A stretch of 64,000 nucleotides of DNA from Sphingomicrobium clamense. GTDB lineage: Bacteria > Pseudomonadota > Alphaproteobacteria > Sphingomonadales > Sphingomonadaceae. The stretch spans positions 604,001 through 668,000 of the forward strand of contig NZ_JAHVAH010000001.1 of NCBI RefSeq assembly GCF_019264355.1. The letters are read 5' to 3'. The position numbers and the translations under genes are program-made. The notes below the pieces were generated by a model, which saw only the letters and a program-made list of their open reading frames with translations, made no database searches and was not told the DNA's origin. Shown piece after piece: positions 32,158 through 54,529 of the stretch (position 1 is its first letter; each line of letters starts with the position of its first letter).

Positions 32158-34308
32158 TTGTACCGTTCGATTCGCGCCCTCGCGCTTGCCGCCACCATCC
32201 TCACCCCCGCGATCCTACACGCGGCCGACACCGCCATTGAGGAAACCGACGCTGCATCCGACGGCGGCGCCCCCGGCGATCCGATCGTCATCACCGGCAA
32301 GCGCGACGGCTACGGCGCCGATGCCACCACCACCGCGATGAAGACCGACACCCCGCTCATCGACACGCCGCAGTCGGTCAGCGTCGTCACTGCCGAGCAG
32401 ATCAACGACCAGGCGCTGCGTTCGATCGGCGATGTCGCGCGCTACGTTCCGGGCATCGCAATGGAATCGGGCGAAGGCCACCGCGACGCCATCGTCATCC
32501 GTGGCAACCTGTCGACTGCCGACTTCTTCACCGACGGCTTGCGCGACGACGTCCAGCATTATCGCGGTCTCTATAATGTCGAGCGTGTCGAAGTGCTCAA
32601 GGGCCCCAACGCGCTGGTCTTCGGTCGCGGCGGCGGGGGCGGAATCGTCAATCGCGTCCTCAAGCGCCCATTCCACGAACGTTATGCAACCGGCGCGTTC
32701 TCGATCGACCAGTATGGCGCGGGGTCGGCACAGATCGACCTCAACAGCCCGCTGACGCTCTCGAGCGAAGGCCGTCTCAACGCGGTCTACGAGCGGCTCG
32801 ACAATTTCCGCTCGATCGAGGGTGAGCGCTGGGCGATCAACCCCACCGTCTCGTGGCACTTCGGCGCCGACACCGACCTCGATCTCGGTTACGAATATGC
32901 GCATGACGAGCGCGACGTCGATCGTGGCCTTCCGCCTGCATTCGAAGGCACGATCGACGATCCTGCCCGCGCGGTCGAAGACTTTGACGAGACCTTCTTC
33001 GGCATTCGCGGCGTCAACCGCAGCGACTTCGACAAGCATGTCGTCGATGCCAAGCTCACCCATCGTTTCAGCGACGCGGTGACCTTCACTTCCAAGGCGC
33101 TCTACGGCGACTATGACAAGATCTACACCAACGCCGTGCCGTCGAGCGCGGTCACCGACGAGAATACGGTCAAGGTCTCGGGCTACCAGGACTTCACCCG
33201 CCGCCAGAACATGCTGTGGCAGAATGACCTCGTCGCCCGCTTCGCCACCGGCGCGCTGGAGCACACGCTGCTAGTCGGCATCGACTATGCCAACCAGGAC
33301 ACGGACGCTGGTCGCCTGCGCGGGTTTTTCGATACGCTTCCCGCGGACCAGAAGAGCGCCAACGGCCGCGAGACTTTCGTGCCGCTCGCCGATCCGTTCG
33401 TGATCCCCGACCTTACCTTCCGTGGCGGCTCGGGAGAGCGCAATGCGCACACCGACGCCGAAGCGATCGGGGTCTATGTCCAGAACCAGGTCGAGATTGG
33501 CGAGCATATCGAGCTGATCGCCGGCCTGCGTCTTGATTGGGTCGACATCCGCGTCCAGGACTTCATCGGCGGCACCGACCTGTCGCGCGAAGACAGCTTG
33601 TGGAGTCCGCGCCTCGGGCTGGTGGTGAAGCCGCAGGACAATGTCAGCCTCTATGCGAGCTGGAGCCGCAGCTACCTGCCCCAGTCGGGCGACCAGTTCG
33701 CTTCGCTCTCGCCCACCACGGCGGCACTCGAACCCGAAAAGTTCACCAATTACGAAGCGGGCGTGAAATGGGAGATTCAGCCGGGCCTCGACCTGACGGT
33801 CGCCGCCTTCCAGCTCGATCGCACCAATACGCGTTCGATCGACCCCGTGACGCTCGACACGGTGCTAACCGGTGAGCAGCGCACCAAGGGTGTCGAATTC
33901 GAGGTCAACGGCAAGATCGGCCGCCTCTCGCTGGCGGGCGGGGTGTCGATCCTCGACGCCGAAATCACCGAGGACACCGCTTCGGCCCCGGCCGGTCGCA
34001 CGACGCCCGACGCGCCCGATTTCGAAGCGTCGCTCTGGGGTCGCTACGACGTCACCGACCGCTTCGGACTGGGTGCGGGGATTTCGCATCGCTCGAGCGT
34101 TTTCGCATCTTACACCAACGAGGTCATGATCGACCCGCTGACGACGGTCGATGTCGCCGCCTATTACGACCTGAGCGAGCGCATCGCGCTGCAGGTCAAC
34201 GTCGACAATCTGTTCGACGAAAAGGGCATCGAATTCGGCCATGGCGACAACAATTTGCACCCGGTCGACGACCGCACGGTGCGCGGTTCGATCCGCTTTG
34301 CCTTCTAG
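32158..34308 (+). CDS. TonB-dependent siderophore receptor
   Basis: 716 residues. The signal peptide (MYRSIRALALAATILTPAILHA) is followed by the plug domain: TPLIDTPQSVSVVTAEQI, then ESGEGHRDAIVIRG, VERVEVLKGPNALVFGRGGGGGIVN. The 22-strand barrel ends in the conserved C-terminal aromatic (IRFAF). It matches catecholate and ferrichrome-type siderophore receptors; the ligand is unknown. The start is a TTG with GGGAG 6 nt upstream; no ATG fits. A Fur-type palindrome precedes it. Its TAG lies in the CTAG shared with the convergent UdgX gene. Confidence 0.92.
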   Translation: MYRSIRALALAATILTPAILHAADTAIEETDAASDGGAPGDPIVITGKRDGYGADATTTAMKTDTPLIDTPQSVSVVTAEQINDQALRSIGDVARYVPGIAMESGEGHRDAIVIRGNLSTADFFTDGLRDDVQHYRGLYNVERVEVLKGPNALVFGRGGGGGIVNRVLKRPFHERYATGAFSIDQYGAGSAQIDLNSPLTLSSEGRLNAVYERLDNFRSIEGERWAINPTVSWHFGADTDLDLGYEYAHDERDVDRGLPPAFEGTIDDPARAVEDFDETFFGIRGVNRSDFDKHVVDAKLTHRFSDAVTFTSKALYGDYDKIYTNAVPSSAVTDENTVKVSGYQDFTRRQNMLWQNDLVARFATGALEHTLLVGIDYANQDTDAGRLRGFFDTLPADQKSANGRETFVPLADPFVIPDLTFRGGSGERNAHTDAEAIGVYVQNQVEIGEHIELIAGLRLDWVDIRVQDFIGGTDLSREDSLWSPRLGLVVKPQDNVSLYASWSRSYLPQSGDQFASLSPTTAALEPEKFTNYEAGVKWEIQPGLDLTVAAFQLDRTNTRSIDPVTLDTVLTGEQRTKGVEFEVNGKIGRLSLAGGVSILDAEITEDTASAPAGRTTPDAPDFEASLWGRYDVTDRFGLGAGISHRSSVFASYTNEVMIDPLTTVDVAAYYDLSERIALQVNVDNLFDEKGIEFGHGDNNLHPVDDRTVRGSIRFAF

Positions 34309-35756
34309 GCGGCGAGCGCCTTTGCGCGCTTGAGATCCTCGACGAAGCGGGCGCGCTCCTCCGCGCGCCTGGCTTCGTCGGGGAGCCTCAGCAGGTAGCT
34401 GGGGTGAACCGTCACCAGCGCGGTTGAGCCGTCGGGGAGCATCTGCGGCTCGTCGCGCAGTTTCGAGATGGTGACCGCCTTGCCAAACAGGGCACGCGCG
34501 GCGGTCCCGCCAAGCGCCACCGTGAGCGGCGGGCGAATGAGGTCGCGCTCCTGGCCCAGCCACCTATTACAGGCACTAATCTCGCCCGCATTGGGCGACT
34601 GGTGGATGCGGCGCTTGCCGCGCAGCACGAACTTGAAGTGCTTGACCGCATTGGTCACATAAGTGTCGGCGCGCTCGATCCCGGCCTCCGCCAGCGACGC
34701 GTCGAACAGCTGGCCCGCAGGGCCGACGAAGGGTCGACCCGCCAGGTCTTCTTGGTCACCGGGCTGCTCGCCTACGAAAAAGATGGACGGTGATAGCGGC
34801 CCTTCGCCGAACACCGTTTGGGTGGCGTCGCAGTGAAGGTCGCAACGCGTACAGCCCTTGGCTTCTTCGCGTAGCGCTGCCCAAGCAGCTTCGCGGCTGG
34901 TAGGCCGTTCCGCCTCAGTTTTCGCCTGCGCGGGCACGCTGGCGCTCTTCTCGATCATCGCGGCTTCACGCGCCTGCGCGCCTGCGAGCAATTCGCCGAT
35001 CGCCGCGGTCTCGGGCATGTTTTTCCAATATTTCTTGGGCATCTCGGCGGTCATCGCCTTCACCTTCACCCGCGCAGGGTTGAAGATCGATTTGTAGTAC
35101 GTCTTCCACGTCTCCTCGACCGGATCGCCGTCGGGGGCGTCGGCGCGGATCGCGCCCGGGCTTTCGGTCAGCGTCTCGCCGTCCCAATGGATGCACAATC
35201 GAGGCGTGAGGATCGACCAGCGCATGTTGGTGAAACGTCGCATGAAGAAGCCGGCCTCGCGCCGCACGATATGATTATCGGGTTCGAACCAGGCCACGAA
35301 ACGCGTGCTCTCTTCATCCTCCACCTCGCGGAAGCGCACGAAGGCATGCATCTTGTGCGCATCGCGGCGCACCTCCTTCTCCAGCCTGCGGAGGCGGTCG
35401 ACGAGCGGGTCGGCGCGGTCGGCTAGCGCGCGCTTGTTATCGCGCAGCTTGAGCAGGAGGGCGTAAAGCAAGGCGAAACGCTCGGGATCGCGGTGGCAAA
35501 TGGCGGTCTTCGCAAGGCTTACGAAGTCGCGCGGGACAGAGAAGCTGGCACCTTTAGGCGCCGAAGCCGCTGCCGGATCGCCCGAACCGAACAGGTCGGC
35601 TTCGTCGCCCTCGACCTCCCAGACGACAGCGGAGGCGGGAACACCCGCCTCCGCCAGGCCGCGCGCGGCATCGCGCCAGCCATCGAAATCATCCTGCCGC
35701 GAGAGCCGAACCCGATGGATATCGACCTGCGGCCCGTCGGGCAGGATCCAGCTCAT
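34305..35756 (-). CDS. DUF4130 - UdgX fusion: putative uracil-DNA crosslinking repair protein
   Basis: 483 residues, two domains. Residues 1-250 match DUF4130 (TIGR03915, a putative DNA-metabolism family). Residues 290-483 are a UdgX-type uracil-DNA glycosylase with motif GEQPGDQED (329-337), the loop KRRIH (381-385) whose His385 corresponds to the residue that links covalently to uracil-excised DNA in mycobacterial UdgX, and HPSYLLR (451-457). Cluster cysteines 302, 305 and 396 are seen; the fourth ligand position is His373 (NAVKHF). It is transcribed after a hemerythrin gene (TAGATG junction) and a TIGR03916-like radical SAM gene, the known partner of DUF4130. Confidence 0.88.
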   Translation of the reverse strand: MSWILPDGPQVDIHRVRLSRQDDFDGWRDAARGLAEAGVPASAVVWEVEGDEADLFGSGDPAAASAPKGASFSVPRDFVSLAKTAICHRDPERFALLYALLLKLRDNKRALADRADPLVDRLRRLEKEVRRDAHKMHAFVRFREVEDEESTRFVAWFEPDNHIVRREAGFFMRRFTNMRWSILTPRLCIHWDGETLTESPGAIRADAPDGDPVEETWKTYYKSIFNPARVKVKAMTAEMPKKYWKNMPETAAIGELLAGAQAREAAMIEKSASVPAQAKTEAERPTSREAAWAALREEAKGCTRCDLHCDATQTVFGEGPLSPSIFFVGEQPGDQEDLAGRPFVGPAGQLFDASLAEAGIERADTYVTNAVKHFKFVLRGKRRIHQSPNAGEISACNRWLGQERDLIRPPLTVALGGTAARALFGKAVTISKLRDEPQMLPDGSTALVTVHPSYLLRLPDEARRAEERARFVEDLKRAKALAA

Positions 35757-36239
35757 CTATTCCCTATCGTCGCCTTCATCGACGCCCTCGAGCGCCCGTT
35801 GATATTCTTCAGGCTTGCGCTCTTCGAACTTGTCCTTGAGCTCGACTTCTTCCTTGCGGCTCAGCTCGTCGGCTGCCGCAGGAAACATGTCCTTCTCTTC
35901 TTCCTCGATGTGGTGGAGATAATCGTGACTCAGCTTCTTGAGCTTCTCGCTCCACTCGCGGCTCGACGGATCGAGCTTTTCCATCTTCATGATGAGGTCG
36001 TCGAGTTCCTTATGTTCGGCGACGCTGTGCTGCCCGTCGTGGCGCAGGTCGGGATCGGCCAGCATCGTCGAATAGAGCGTTTCTTCCTCCGCGGCGGCAT
36101 GCGCCTTCACTTCCACCTTGAAGTTCTCGAAGAGCGCCTTGCGGTCGTCCGGGTCCTGCGACACCGTCATCCGCGTGAGCATCTCGCGATGCTTGTCGTG
36201 ATCTTCTTTCAACCGTTTGAAAATTGTCTCTTCGGCCAT
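35757..36239 (-). CDS. hemerythrin (HHE) domain protein
   Basis: 160 residues, all helical, highly charged, no signal peptide. Candidate di-iron ligands follow the hemerythrin spacing: His14, His47 with Glu51 (HAAAE), His76 and His110 with Glu114 (HIEEE). Such proteins bind oxygen, NO or iron and are often stress-related. Start at 36239 (MAEETIFK); upstream in-frame sequence belongs to the radical SAM gene. The stop is directly followed by the UdgX ATG, so the two are translated from one mRNA. Confidence 0.85.
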   Translation of the reverse strand: MAEETIFKRLKEDHDKHREMLTRMTVSQDPDDRKALFENFKVEVKAHAAAEEETLYSTMLADPDLRHDGQHSVAEHKELDDLIMKMEKLDPSSREWSEKLKKLSHDYLHHIEEEEKDMFPAAADELSRKEEVELKDKFEERKPEEYQRALEGVDEGDDRE

Positions 36240-36292
36240 TTGTCGAAACTCCTTTTTTCTTTCCCTACCAACGCGTTGGAGGCGGGAAGAGT

Positions 36293-37555
36293 TCAGGCGG
36301 CCTTTGGTCCATGGTGGGCGAACAGGTCGAGTTGTGCGGCGGGTGGGGCGATCAGCGCCTTCAGATCGGCTCGGTCCGTCAGCAGCGTCGGGCGCCAGTC
36401 CGAGGTGATGATGAAAGGCCGCACCTTCTTCACCGACACGGTCAGCCGCGCCACGTCGTCGAGCCGCAAGGTCCGGAAGCGCCGCGAGGAAAGGATGCGC
36501 CCGACTGCCTTCGTTCCGAGGCCGGGGACGCGCAGCAACTCTTCCTTCGTCGCGCGATTGACGTCGACGGGAAAGCTCTCGCGAAACTTGAGCGCCCAAG
36601 CGAGCTTGGGGTCGATGTCGAGCGGCAGCATCCCCTTTTCGTCGGTCGCCGCAACGACTTCCTGCGGCTTGAAACCATAGAAGCGCATCAGCCAGTCGGA
36701 CTGGTAGAGGCGGTGCTCTCGCATCAACGGGGGTCGTTTGAGCGGGAGCACCGCACTCGGCTCGGGAATGGGGGAGAAAGCGCTGTAATAGACCCGGCGC
36801 AGCGAGAAACGGTCGTACAGGCTGCGCGCCTTTGTCACGATCGCGCCATCATTCGCGTCGTCGGCGCCCACGATCATCTGGGTCGACTGACCGCCGGGTG
36901 CATAGCGAGGCGCGGAGCGATATTTTTTTCGCGCATCCTTGTTGTCGGCGATGTCGGACTTCGTATTGCGCATCGCCGTCTCGATCCGCTTCTCGTCCTT
37001 TTCGGGCGCGAGCCGTGTCAGACCCTGCCGCGTGGGGAGTTCGACGTTGATCGAAACACGGTCGGCGTAAAGGCCTGCCTGATGAACCAGCTCCGGATCA
37101 GCATCGGGAATGGTCTTGAGATGAATGTAGCCGCGAAAGTCGTGCACGTCGCGAAGCTGCCGCGCAACCTCGACCATCTGCTCCATCGTATAGTTGGACG
37201 ACTTGATAATCCCGCTCGAAAGGAACAGACCCTCAATATAGTTTCGCTTGTAGAAGTTCAGGGTGAGCTGGACGACTTCCTCGACCGTGAAGCGTGCGCG
37301 GCGCACGTTCGAGCTCTTACGATTGATGCAATAATGGCAGTCGAAAATGCAGCTGTTGGTGAGGAGGATCTTGAGCAGGCTGATACAGCGTCCGTCGGGC
37401 GCATAGGCGTGACAGATGCCCATGCCCTCGGTCGAGCCCACGCCCGTGCCGCCCCGACTGTCGCGCTTGGACGAACCCGACGACGCGCACGACGCGTCGT
37501 ATTTCGCCGCATCGGCGAGAATCGAGAGCTTTTCGCGAGTGTCCAGGCGGGCCAT
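36293..37555 (-). CDS. radical SAM protein, putative DNA modification/repair (TIGR03916-like)
   Basis: 420 residues. The radical SAM cluster motif C69-x3-C73-x2-C76 (CIFDCHYC) follows RCISLLKILLTN, with extra cysteines near 23 and 48. The SAM core runs to about 300. The C-terminal part contains a helix-hairpin-helix (VDVNRATKEELLRVPGLGTK), which indicates DNA binding. The family is described as a putative DNA modification/repair radical SAM protein and occurs with DUF4130 proteins; the reaction is unknown. It is first in the minus-strand string radical SAM - hemerythrin - DUF4130/UdgX. Confidence 0.88.
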   Translation of the reverse strand: MARLDTREKLSILADAAKYDASCASSGSSKRDSRGGTGVGSTEGMGICHAYAPDGRCISLLKILLTNSCIFDCHYCINRKSSNVRRARFTVEEVVQLTLNFYKRNYIEGLFLSSGIIKSSNYTMEQMVEVARQLRDVHDFRGYIHLKTIPDADPELVHQAGLYADRVSINVELPTRQGLTRLAPEKDEKRIETAMRNTKSDIADNKDARKKYRSAPRYAPGGQSTQMIVGADDANDGAIVTKARSLYDRFSLRRVYYSAFSPIPEPSAVLPLKRPPLMREHRLYQSDWLMRFYGFKPQEVVAATDEKGMLPLDIDPKLAWALKFRESFPVDVNRATKEELLRVPGLGTKAVGRILSSRRFRTLRLDDVARLTVSVKKVRPFIITSDWRPTLLTDRADLKALIAPPAAQLDLFAHHGPKAA

Positions 37556-37675
37556 CTGTTCACTCTACGTTCTCACGCGTCGCGATAAAAGACTCCTAGC
37601 CGACATAGGTCGAAAAATTCTTCCGGTTCGTCCGGGGTGCGCCTAGGGTCCCGCGCAACGAACAGGGAGACTTTC

Positions 37676-53577: not shown

Positions 53578-54060
53578 ATGATTCCATCGGCACATTTTCG
53601 CGAACAGCAGGCGCGCGCCAGGGCGATTTCGCGCCGCATCGTCGAGGGTGTCGATCGCTATCGAACGCCCGACGACAGTTTCGCGATCGTGCTCGATATC
53701 GCACGCCTTACCGGCATGCTGGCGATCCATTTTGCACAGATCGACCGTTCGCTGGTCCCGAGGTTGGTGCAGGGCGACGACGATGTGCGGCGGCTGGCCC
53801 TTCGCTTCCGTGACGAGTTCGGCGAATTCGGACGGCTGGTGAAATTGTTCAACACGCGTTGGGGGACGTCCGCGGCGATCAGTGGCGATCCGGTTGCCTT
53901 CCGGGTCGATGTCCACCAGCTGATCGACGCGGTCGAGGAACGGTTCGTGCGCGAGGACAGGGACTTGTTCCGGGTCAACGACCGGCTGGCCAGCCTCGCC
54001 GACATCGAGTTCTCGATGCCCCCCGCAAAACCGCCGGTGGCCATACCCAACGCCGCCTAG
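53578..54060 (+). CDS. hemerythrin-like protein, degenerate (first of tandem pair)
   Basis: 160 residues, four-helix pattern, no signal. The first half retains an HxxxxD motif (His51, AIHFAQIDRSLVP), but the second half reads ERFVREDRDLF where hemerythrins have HxxxE, and the middle histidine is missing. It is homologous to the following gene, with matching blocks HFAQIDRSL / HLATEDQSL and RFVREDRDLF / RIARENDQLY. Metal binding is doubtful, so a regulatory or scaffold role is possible. It is 26 bp upstream of its paralogue. Confidence 0.65.
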   Translation: MIPSAHFREQQARARAISRRIVEGVDRYRTPDDSFAIVLDIARLTGMLAIHFAQIDRSLVPRLVQGDDDVRRLALRFRDEFGEFGRLVKLFNTRWGTSAAISGDPVAFRVDVHQLIDAVEERFVREDRDLFRVNDRLASLADIEFSMPPAKPPVAIPNAA

Positions 54061-54085: not shown

Positions 54086-54529
54086 ATGAGCAGAACCAGC
54101 GCGCTGCGTGCGCAGCACGACCGCATCGAGCAATTGGCGGGAAAGCTCGACCGGGAGGTCATGGCGCGGCGAGAGGGCGACGATTGCGATGCGATCGCGC
54201 TGCTGCTCGCCAAGCTTCTCGGTGTCCTTCGCATTCATCTCGCGACCGAAGATCAATCGCTCTACCCCTACATGATCGACAGTGGCGACCAGCATGCGTC
54301 GGGCCTGGTACAGCATTTCCAGGATGAGATGGGAGGGCTGGCAGGAACGGTCAGCCAGTTTGCCGAACGGTGGACGTGCGCGCGGACGATGGAGAGCGGT
54401 TTTGCCGACTTTCGCCACGAGCTCGTCGCGATCCTATCGGCGCTGTCCAAGCGGATCGCGCGCGAGAATGACCAGCTCTACCCGCTTGCCGACGAACTTG
54501 CCGAACGTCAGCAGCGAATGTCGGCCTAG
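54086..54529 (+). CDS. hemerythrin-domain protein (second of tandem pair)
   Basis: 147 residues. It has His11 (AQHDRIEQL), His51 with Glu55 (HLATEDQSLYP) and His77, but the last ligand pair is changed: Arg123 stands where the second HxxxE histidine is expected (KRIARENDQLYP). His111 might substitute. A cytoplasmic oxygen/NO/iron-responsive role is the default for the family. An AAGGAG precedes the ATG. Its TAG lies in the CTAG shared with the convergent oxidoreductase gene. Confidence 0.78.
   Translation: MSRTSALRAQHDRIEQLAGKLDREVMARREGDDCDAIALLLAKLLGVLRIHLATEDQSLYPYMIDSGDQHASGLVQHFQDEMGGLAGTVSQFAERWTCARTMESGFADFRHELVAILSALSKRIARENDQLYPLADELAERQQRMSA

Follow-up and report, generated by a model that had tools for sequence, protein, structure and literature searches.

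A radical SAM and DUF4130-UdgX repair pair with an SOS-type box, a clamp-type tail and an inserted hemerythrin gene in Sphingomicrobium clamense

The genes of the locus

A 64,000-nucleotide stretch of the Sphingomicrobium clamense genome (contig NZ_JAHVAH010000001.1, positions 604,001 to 668,000; hereafter the window, in whose own numbering all coordinates are given) carries on its minus strand a gene for a radical S-adenosylmethionine (SAM) protein (37555-36293), a hemerythrin gene (36239-35757) and a gene fusing DUF4130 to a UdgX-type uracil-DNA glycosylase (UDG) domain (35756-34305). The three open reading frames (ORFs) were confirmed at these coordinates, and profile scores uphold the families (radical SAM, hemerythrin, DUF4130, UdgX) to which an initial annotation of the bare sequence had assigned them. 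The locus is not a new kind of system: its repair pair is already known, and what distinguishes it is a clamp-type tail and a regulatory insertion that is partly conserved.

The 420-residue radical SAM protein was characterized by profile match, a 69-row alignment and a structure model (mean predicted local distance difference test score, pLDDT, 85.2). It scores 581.3 bits against TIGR03916, whose curated cut-off is 343.5, and its cysteines C69-X3-C73-X2-C76 (37328-37351, minus strand) are invariant in the 69 aligned sequences. Three more cysteines, C23, C48 and C57, are invariant in the same alignment and might bind an auxiliary cluster. In a fold comparison the top rows, though tied, are lipoyl synthases, enzymes that carry such a cluster; a fold like that of the spore photoproduct lyase SplB did not take a clear first rank. 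The helix-hairpin-helix (HhH) with which the initial annotation ended the protein was located in the C-terminal part, at residues 329-362, but its 23.3 bits fall below the Pfam cut-off of 27.

The 483-residue fusion matches TIGR03915 at residues 20-250 (221.8 versus 112.25 bits) and PF13566 (138.2 versus 27 bits) with its DUF4130 half, and TIGR03914 at residues 253-477 (317.9 versus 189.95 bits) with its UdgX half. The UdgX signatures are intact: GEQPG with the motif A glutamine, the KRRIH loop with the nucleophile His385, just as first annotated, and HPS of motif B. The loop histidine is retained in 123 of 129 scored fusions and GEQPG in 136 of 148, while exact KRRIH occurs in 78 of these 148, the majority of the rest reading KRRLH. 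In Mycobacterium smegmatis, UdgX removes uracil and bonds covalently to the abasic site by way of the loop histidine, and this chemistry likely operates in the fusion as well.

Between the two lies a 160-residue hemerythrin-like HHE protein (PF01814, 60.9 versus 25.3 bits). Its likely start is the ATG at 36239, the ORF list beginning further upstream at a TTG, and its candidate ligands H14, H47, E51, H76, H110 and E114, which follow the hemerythrin di-iron pattern, are invariant in all eight operon copies. The hemerythrin TAG (35759-35757) was indeed found to abut the fusion ATG (35756-35754), with 0 nucleotides (nt) between them. The proposed cotranscription of all three genes is less straightforward, as a 53-nt gap ahead of the hemerythrin ATG likely contains a second promoter. 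Scans of the region for sigma-70 promoters and terminators gave nothing exceeding shuffles.

An SOS-type box and a clamp-type tail on a known pair

The radical SAM-DUF4130 pair is an ordinary, known family. TIGR03916 exceeds its cut-off in 100 of 149 genomes of the family Sphingomonadaceae, in 18 of 289 genomes of a class sample and in 84 of 398 of a phylum sample. A DUF4130 match is present in 96 of 101 family loci (100 plus the window), and DUF4130 adjoins TIGR03916 in 12 of 12 loci inspected outside the family (of 15 over cut-off) and in 20 of 20 inspected outside the class (of 29), the UDG half being missing from several of these 32. We take TIGR03916 to be the family COG4277. Published work already covers the regulation of a pair of this kind by SOS: in the portions of PMC8565304 available, it is predicted for a two-gene COG1573-COG4277 repair operon in Bacteroidetes and stated as reported in Verrucomicrobia and Alphaproteobacteria. 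The initial description of these proteins as known only in putative terms is apt for their chemistry and overtaken for their regulation; literature searches (DUF4130 with radical SAM; TIGR03914 to TIGR03916; COG4277/COG1573 with SOS) returned no paper that assigns the chemistry of the pair.

In the window, a LexA-type SOS box, GAACGTAGAGTGAAC, occupies positions 37558-37572 on the minus strand, 3-17 nt upstream of the radical SAM ATG, a position that is conserved. Of 155 unique loci, 152 have a box of this type (GAAC-N7-GAAC or GTTC-N7-GTTC) no more than 100 nt ahead of the start of the radical SAM gene, namely all 51 hemerythrin-linked loci, 90 of 92 other family loci and 11 of 12 outside the family, for which shuffles gave 0.15, 0.24 and 0.04. 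GTTC-N7-GTTC is given as the alphaproteobacterial LexA motif in the same portions of PMC8565304, and the recA and lexA upstreams of this genome carry it. The bare pattern is no commoner in the window than expected (2 occurrences against 1.76), so the case for LexA rests on conservation. A stricter pattern, GAACNTANNNNGAAC, matches genome-wide only at the radical SAM operon; it misses recA and lexA because these use other middle bases. The conserved promoter box would place the radical SAM gene in the alphaproteobacterial SOS regulon.

The second conserved feature lies at the other end of the gene. QL[SD]LF is the docking consensus for the beta clamp, and the radical SAM protein bears QLDLF near its C-terminus (residues 408-412; 36320-36334, minus strand). 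A relaxed form of this tail is present in 150 of 157 unique radical SAM proteins and strict QLxLF in 126, as QLELF, QLDLF, QLSLF or near forms; the seven tails outside the relaxed form comprise five reading Q[LM]SLA[LFI], one QYELF and one protein cut short. All 20 tails from outside the class read Q-x-x-L-[FWLI] by eye, three of them being strict QLxLF. As background, QLxLF occurs in the last 60 residues of 1 of 5235 other ORFs of at least 150 residues, most of which are spurious. A second background (26 of 776 called genes) was discarded, as its set still included radical SAM genes. The tail is of low confidence in the structure model, residues 409-411 and 413-420 falling under a pLDDT of 50. 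Conservation of the motif suggests that the radical SAM protein may dock on the DnaN clamp. Neither the box nor the tail figured in the initial annotation.

A hemerythrin gene with its own connections

How firmly does the hemerythrin belong to the pair? In the even family sample it stands between the radical SAM and fusion genes in 8 of 101 loci, and 93 have no adjacent hemerythrin (one of these, L104, ends at a contig edge); outside the family, with the A1 profile only, none was found beside the pair in the 32 loci inspected. From the hemerythrin side, a scan with the eight-sequence alignment confirmed 290 loci among the matches listed, and in the best 80 of these, a biased set that does not give a family rate, 51 hemerythrins share their locus with DUF4130-UdgX, 48 of them with the radical SAM gene as well. 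Linked copies span Sphingomonas, Sphingobium, Novosphingobium, Stakelama and Sphingomicrobium. The conserved linkage that the initial annotation proposed to survey is thus found among these relatives and missing from most of the family and from every locus inspected beyond it. Measured to the closest start codon of the fusion, the gap after the hemerythrin stop is at most 10 nt in 27 and at most 50 nt in 37 of 49 scored loci (out of 56 hemerythrin-fusion pairs). On a radical SAM tree of 98 rows, which leaves out L104 and the two loci with broken genes described below, the linkage needs five changes and well-supported branches force only one; a single gain plus losses is left open by this tree. 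A hemerythrin tree of 99 rows calls for 11 switches between the linked and the unlinked state, and no fewer than five of them are forced. By these counts sphingomonads show a real linkage that recurs without being universal, and the hemerythrin is not core to the repair pair.

Genome content adds to this picture. Across the 149 family genomes, TIGR03916 and the hemerythrin (more than 140 bits) occur together in 56, the hemerythrin alone in 10, TIGR03916 alone in 44 and neither in 39, and the two genes are side by side in only 8 of the 56. Among 29 genomes with an unlinked hemerythrin, 13 have TIGR03916 over its cut-off and 16 have none, genome completeness not being given. For 19 of the 29 unlinked loci, two or more of the flanking families recur at a linked locus. 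The hemerythrin would there have kept its place with no pair around it, which argues that it has a task of its own. That task is likely di-iron handling of oxygen, peroxide, nitric oxide or iron, independent of the pair.

The likely second promoter is of the type read by EcfG, the general-stress sigma factor. It has the form TGAAC-N17-CGTT (36270-36295, minus strand), where the TGA doubles as the stop codon of the radical SAM gene, and resembles a motif common to hemerythrin upstreams. De novo search recovered the two-block motif GGAAC-N16-CGTT before 52 linked and 50 unlinked hemerythrins, mostly 50-70 nt from the ATG, with log-likelihoods of 163 (linked) and 133 (unlinked), where four shuffles each, run with fewer restarts, reached -61 to -68. 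Sphingomonad EcfG motifs are published as GGAAC-N16-CGTT and GGAAC-N17-20-GTT (PMC7083833, PMC6599016, in the portions available). A matrix trained on unlinked hemerythrins exceeded its 99% shuffle threshold at 40 of 52 linked hemerythrin upstreams and at 5 of 143 radical SAM upstreams. Four loci without a recognized start (L160, L161, L171, L185) were left out of the upstream listing, the motif search, the matrix test and the hemerythrin tree. Among 51 unlinked hemerythrins, 18 have the strict form GGAAC-N15-18-[CG]GTT upstream (0.28 expected); relaxed or strict sites precede 24 of these 51 and 12 of 63 linked ones (1.15 and 0.65 expected), in a scan that counts duplicate loci where the box, gap and clamp-tail counts drop them. 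Looser scanning placed a relaxed site before one fusion among 67 that lack a hemerythrin and before none of 60 linked fusions. The window contains a single TGAAC-N16/17-CGTTGG, with 0.04 expected, the pattern having been chosen after the site was seen. The close relatives L045, L134 and L135 retain TGAAC and CGTTGG with differing spacers, because of which a MAFFT alignment of the four upstreams does not line up the -10 elements; the footprint across relatives is taken from the listed sites and not from that alignment. The initial annotation had named separate promoters, jointly with a missing DNA-damage phenotype, as findings that would refute it; on the first half of these, an EcfG-type promoter does appear to stand before hemerythrins, linked and unlinked alike.

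The neighbourhood of the unlinked hemerythrins also has a general-stress character. Their 29 loci include PhyR-family genes in 15, CHASE-HWE kinases in 11, EcfG-type sigma factors in 8, phytochrome-HWE kinases in 7, topoisomerase IB in 5 and genes like general stress protein 26 (GSP26) in 5; the corresponding numbers in the 51 linked loci are 0, 0, 0, 2, 3 and 3, each family taking its name from the Pfam match of a single representative. For S. melonis Fr1, Table 1 of PMC6599016, a paper available in part, lists topoisomerase IB and general stress protein 26 with the leading genes that depend on EcfG. In the S. clamense genome itself, genes for NepR, PhyR and an extracytoplasmic function (ECF) sigma factor lie next to one another some 107 kb outside the window. 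Literature searches found no paper joining EcfG, hemerythrin and the general stress response, and none joining hemerythrin, Sphingomonas and sigma factor.

Several further observations concern these genes and their surroundings. A 137-residue family that matches nothing in Pfam (19 copies, membrane-like by eye) sits between the radical SAM and hemerythrin genes in 16 of the 51 linked loci, including L150, L152, L178 and other Sphingobium loci. A beta-helix/NosD-like gene with a companion lies inside the operon between hemerythrin and fusion in L188, L193 and L205 and before the hemerythrin in L174 and L197; in L210 the two adjoin a hemerythrin without the repair pair. The radical SAM gene is broken in two family genomes, by an in-frame stop in L089 (G034) and by a split in two in L103 (G026). 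Two more hemerythrin-like genes stand in tandem in the window (53578-54060 and 54086-54529, plus strand, 25 nt between them), and all three PF01814 matches of the 2.2-Mb genome (E 0.001) are located inside the window. The 3' end of a convergent gene for a TonB-dependent siderophore receptor (32158-34308, plus strand) overlaps the end of the fusion gene by 4 nt (34305-34308), which may be an iron link or chance.

A proposed repair operon with two alarms

Reading on from gene order, boxes, motifs and linkage counts to transcription, clamp binding, catalysis by the operon products and the task of the hemerythrin, we infer, with a probability of roughly 0.6, an SOS-induced, probably clamp-docked repair pair into which a hemerythrin gene and its EcfG promoter have been placed, so that DUF4130-UdgX can answer both alarms. 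The core would be a two-protein DNA-repair unit repressed by LexA at the box that precedes the radical SAM gene. The radical SAM protein would most likely dock on the sliding clamp by its QLDLF tail and grip DNA with its HhH, and through both would act at or behind replication forks. DUF4130-UdgX would remove uracil, and a covalent bond between His385 and the abasic site would trap or shield that site. The hemerythrin would be a gene of the general stress response (PhyR-NepR-EcfG) that brought its own promoter with it when placed between the pair; since the fusion gene starts directly or shortly after it, transcription by EcfG should extend into DUF4130-UdgX. SOS output would then be the radical SAM protein and the fusion, and general stress would also yield hemerythrin and fusion. 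The nearly constant box and the clamp-type tail indicate when and where the widespread TIGR03916-DUF4130 set should act, and the pair thereby becomes testable. If the proposal is true, an inserted gene has, by means of its stress promoter, brought a repair protein of the SOS system under general-stress control as well, and a single repair operon takes input from two alarm systems.

Several points weigh against this proposal. The EcfG site in the window is weak by itself (p about 0.09), same-genus L093 has no relaxed site, 12 of the 52 linked upstreams fall under the matrix threshold and the strict GGAAC site precedes none of the 63 linked hemerythrins. The matrix control on fusion upstreams gave n = 0, choosing the nearest start codon biases the gap count towards short gaps, and clamp docking is argued from a motif. 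The main text of either EcfG paper (PMC7083833, PMC6599016), so far as available, does not mention hemerythrin. There is also a genome-level association between TIGR03916 and hemerythrin (odds ratio 5, phylogeny uncorrected) which, together with the recurrent linkage, leaves room for a real functional tie.

Could the hemerythrin be a neutral passenger in an insertion-tolerant spot, with its own promoter and job and no effect on repair? The same spot also takes the 137-residue family and, in a few loci, the beta-helix/NosD-like genes, the hemerythrin and the pair each occur without the other, and the shared flanks of the 19 unlinked loci suggest that the pair came or went around a resident hemerythrin. 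Such indifference sits poorly, however, with linkage across several genera in 51 of the best 80 of 290 relatives, with short hemerythrin-fusion gaps in 37 of 49 loci and with an EcfG-type promoter kept at a similar distance within the operon, and we regard this explanation as unlikely. We are a little more doubtful still of a replication-coupled shield for abasic sites, in which the clamp-docked radical SAM protein would convert or prepare damaged bases at the fork, or later release the adduct, UdgX would cap the resulting site covalently, SOS would drive both, and in sphingomonads general stress would pre-load the cap by way of the hemerythrin gene and the EcfG promoter it brings into the operon.

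The initial annotation read the hemerythrin as protecting the radical SAM step, or its iron-sulfur cluster, from oxygen, or supplying iron, during repair; a cluster of UdgX could be included in this reading. Linkage in part of the family, the CX3CX2C motif with three more invariant cysteines and the positive genome-level association are what one would expect from this, but the need it posits finds no support at the 93 family loci and 32 outside loci that lack an adjacent hemerythrin; moreover, 44 of the 100 TIGR03916 family genomes have no close hemerythrin orthologue, 16 of the 29 genomes with an unlinked copy retain it without TIGR03916, and the hemerythrin appears to have a separate promoter, all of which makes the idea improbable. 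Least probable is a dormancy factor that slows translation and division during repair in the manner of P. aeruginosa PA2171, which in the available parts of PMC13041383 binds ribosomes and FtsZ and promotes persisters: the PA2171 family (NF053874) is the sole NCBIfam match of the hemerythrin (E 0.001), but 54.8 bits against a cut-off of 190 make it a distant relative, and membership was rejected.

Comparison with known systems

The proposed chemistry has two familiar counterparts. HMCES/SRAP proteins shield abasic sites by covalent capture, and the likeness to the UdgX scheme is one of working only, with no relationship claimed. UdgX of M. smegmatis differs from the UdgX domain described here, which is fused behind DUF4130 and paired with a radical SAM protein. 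On the regulatory side, the sphingomonad EcfG regulon has the promoter form GGAAC-N16-CGTT, which was also recovered before the hemerythrins as a set, and includes as known targets the topoisomerase IB and GSP26 found as neighbours of the hemerythrin; in the portions available, it also holds a DNA-repair precedent in Ku, while neither hemerythrin nor uracil occurs in the main text of the S. granuli paper, and neither HHE nor uracil in that of the S. melonis paper. The closest comparison is the TIGR03916/TIGR03915/TIGR03914 radical SAM-DUF4130-UDG set itself: the window locus matches all three models over their cut-offs and shares the SOS-type box of the pair, and it differs in carrying, between the two genes, a hemerythrin with what appears to be its own EcfG-type promoter.

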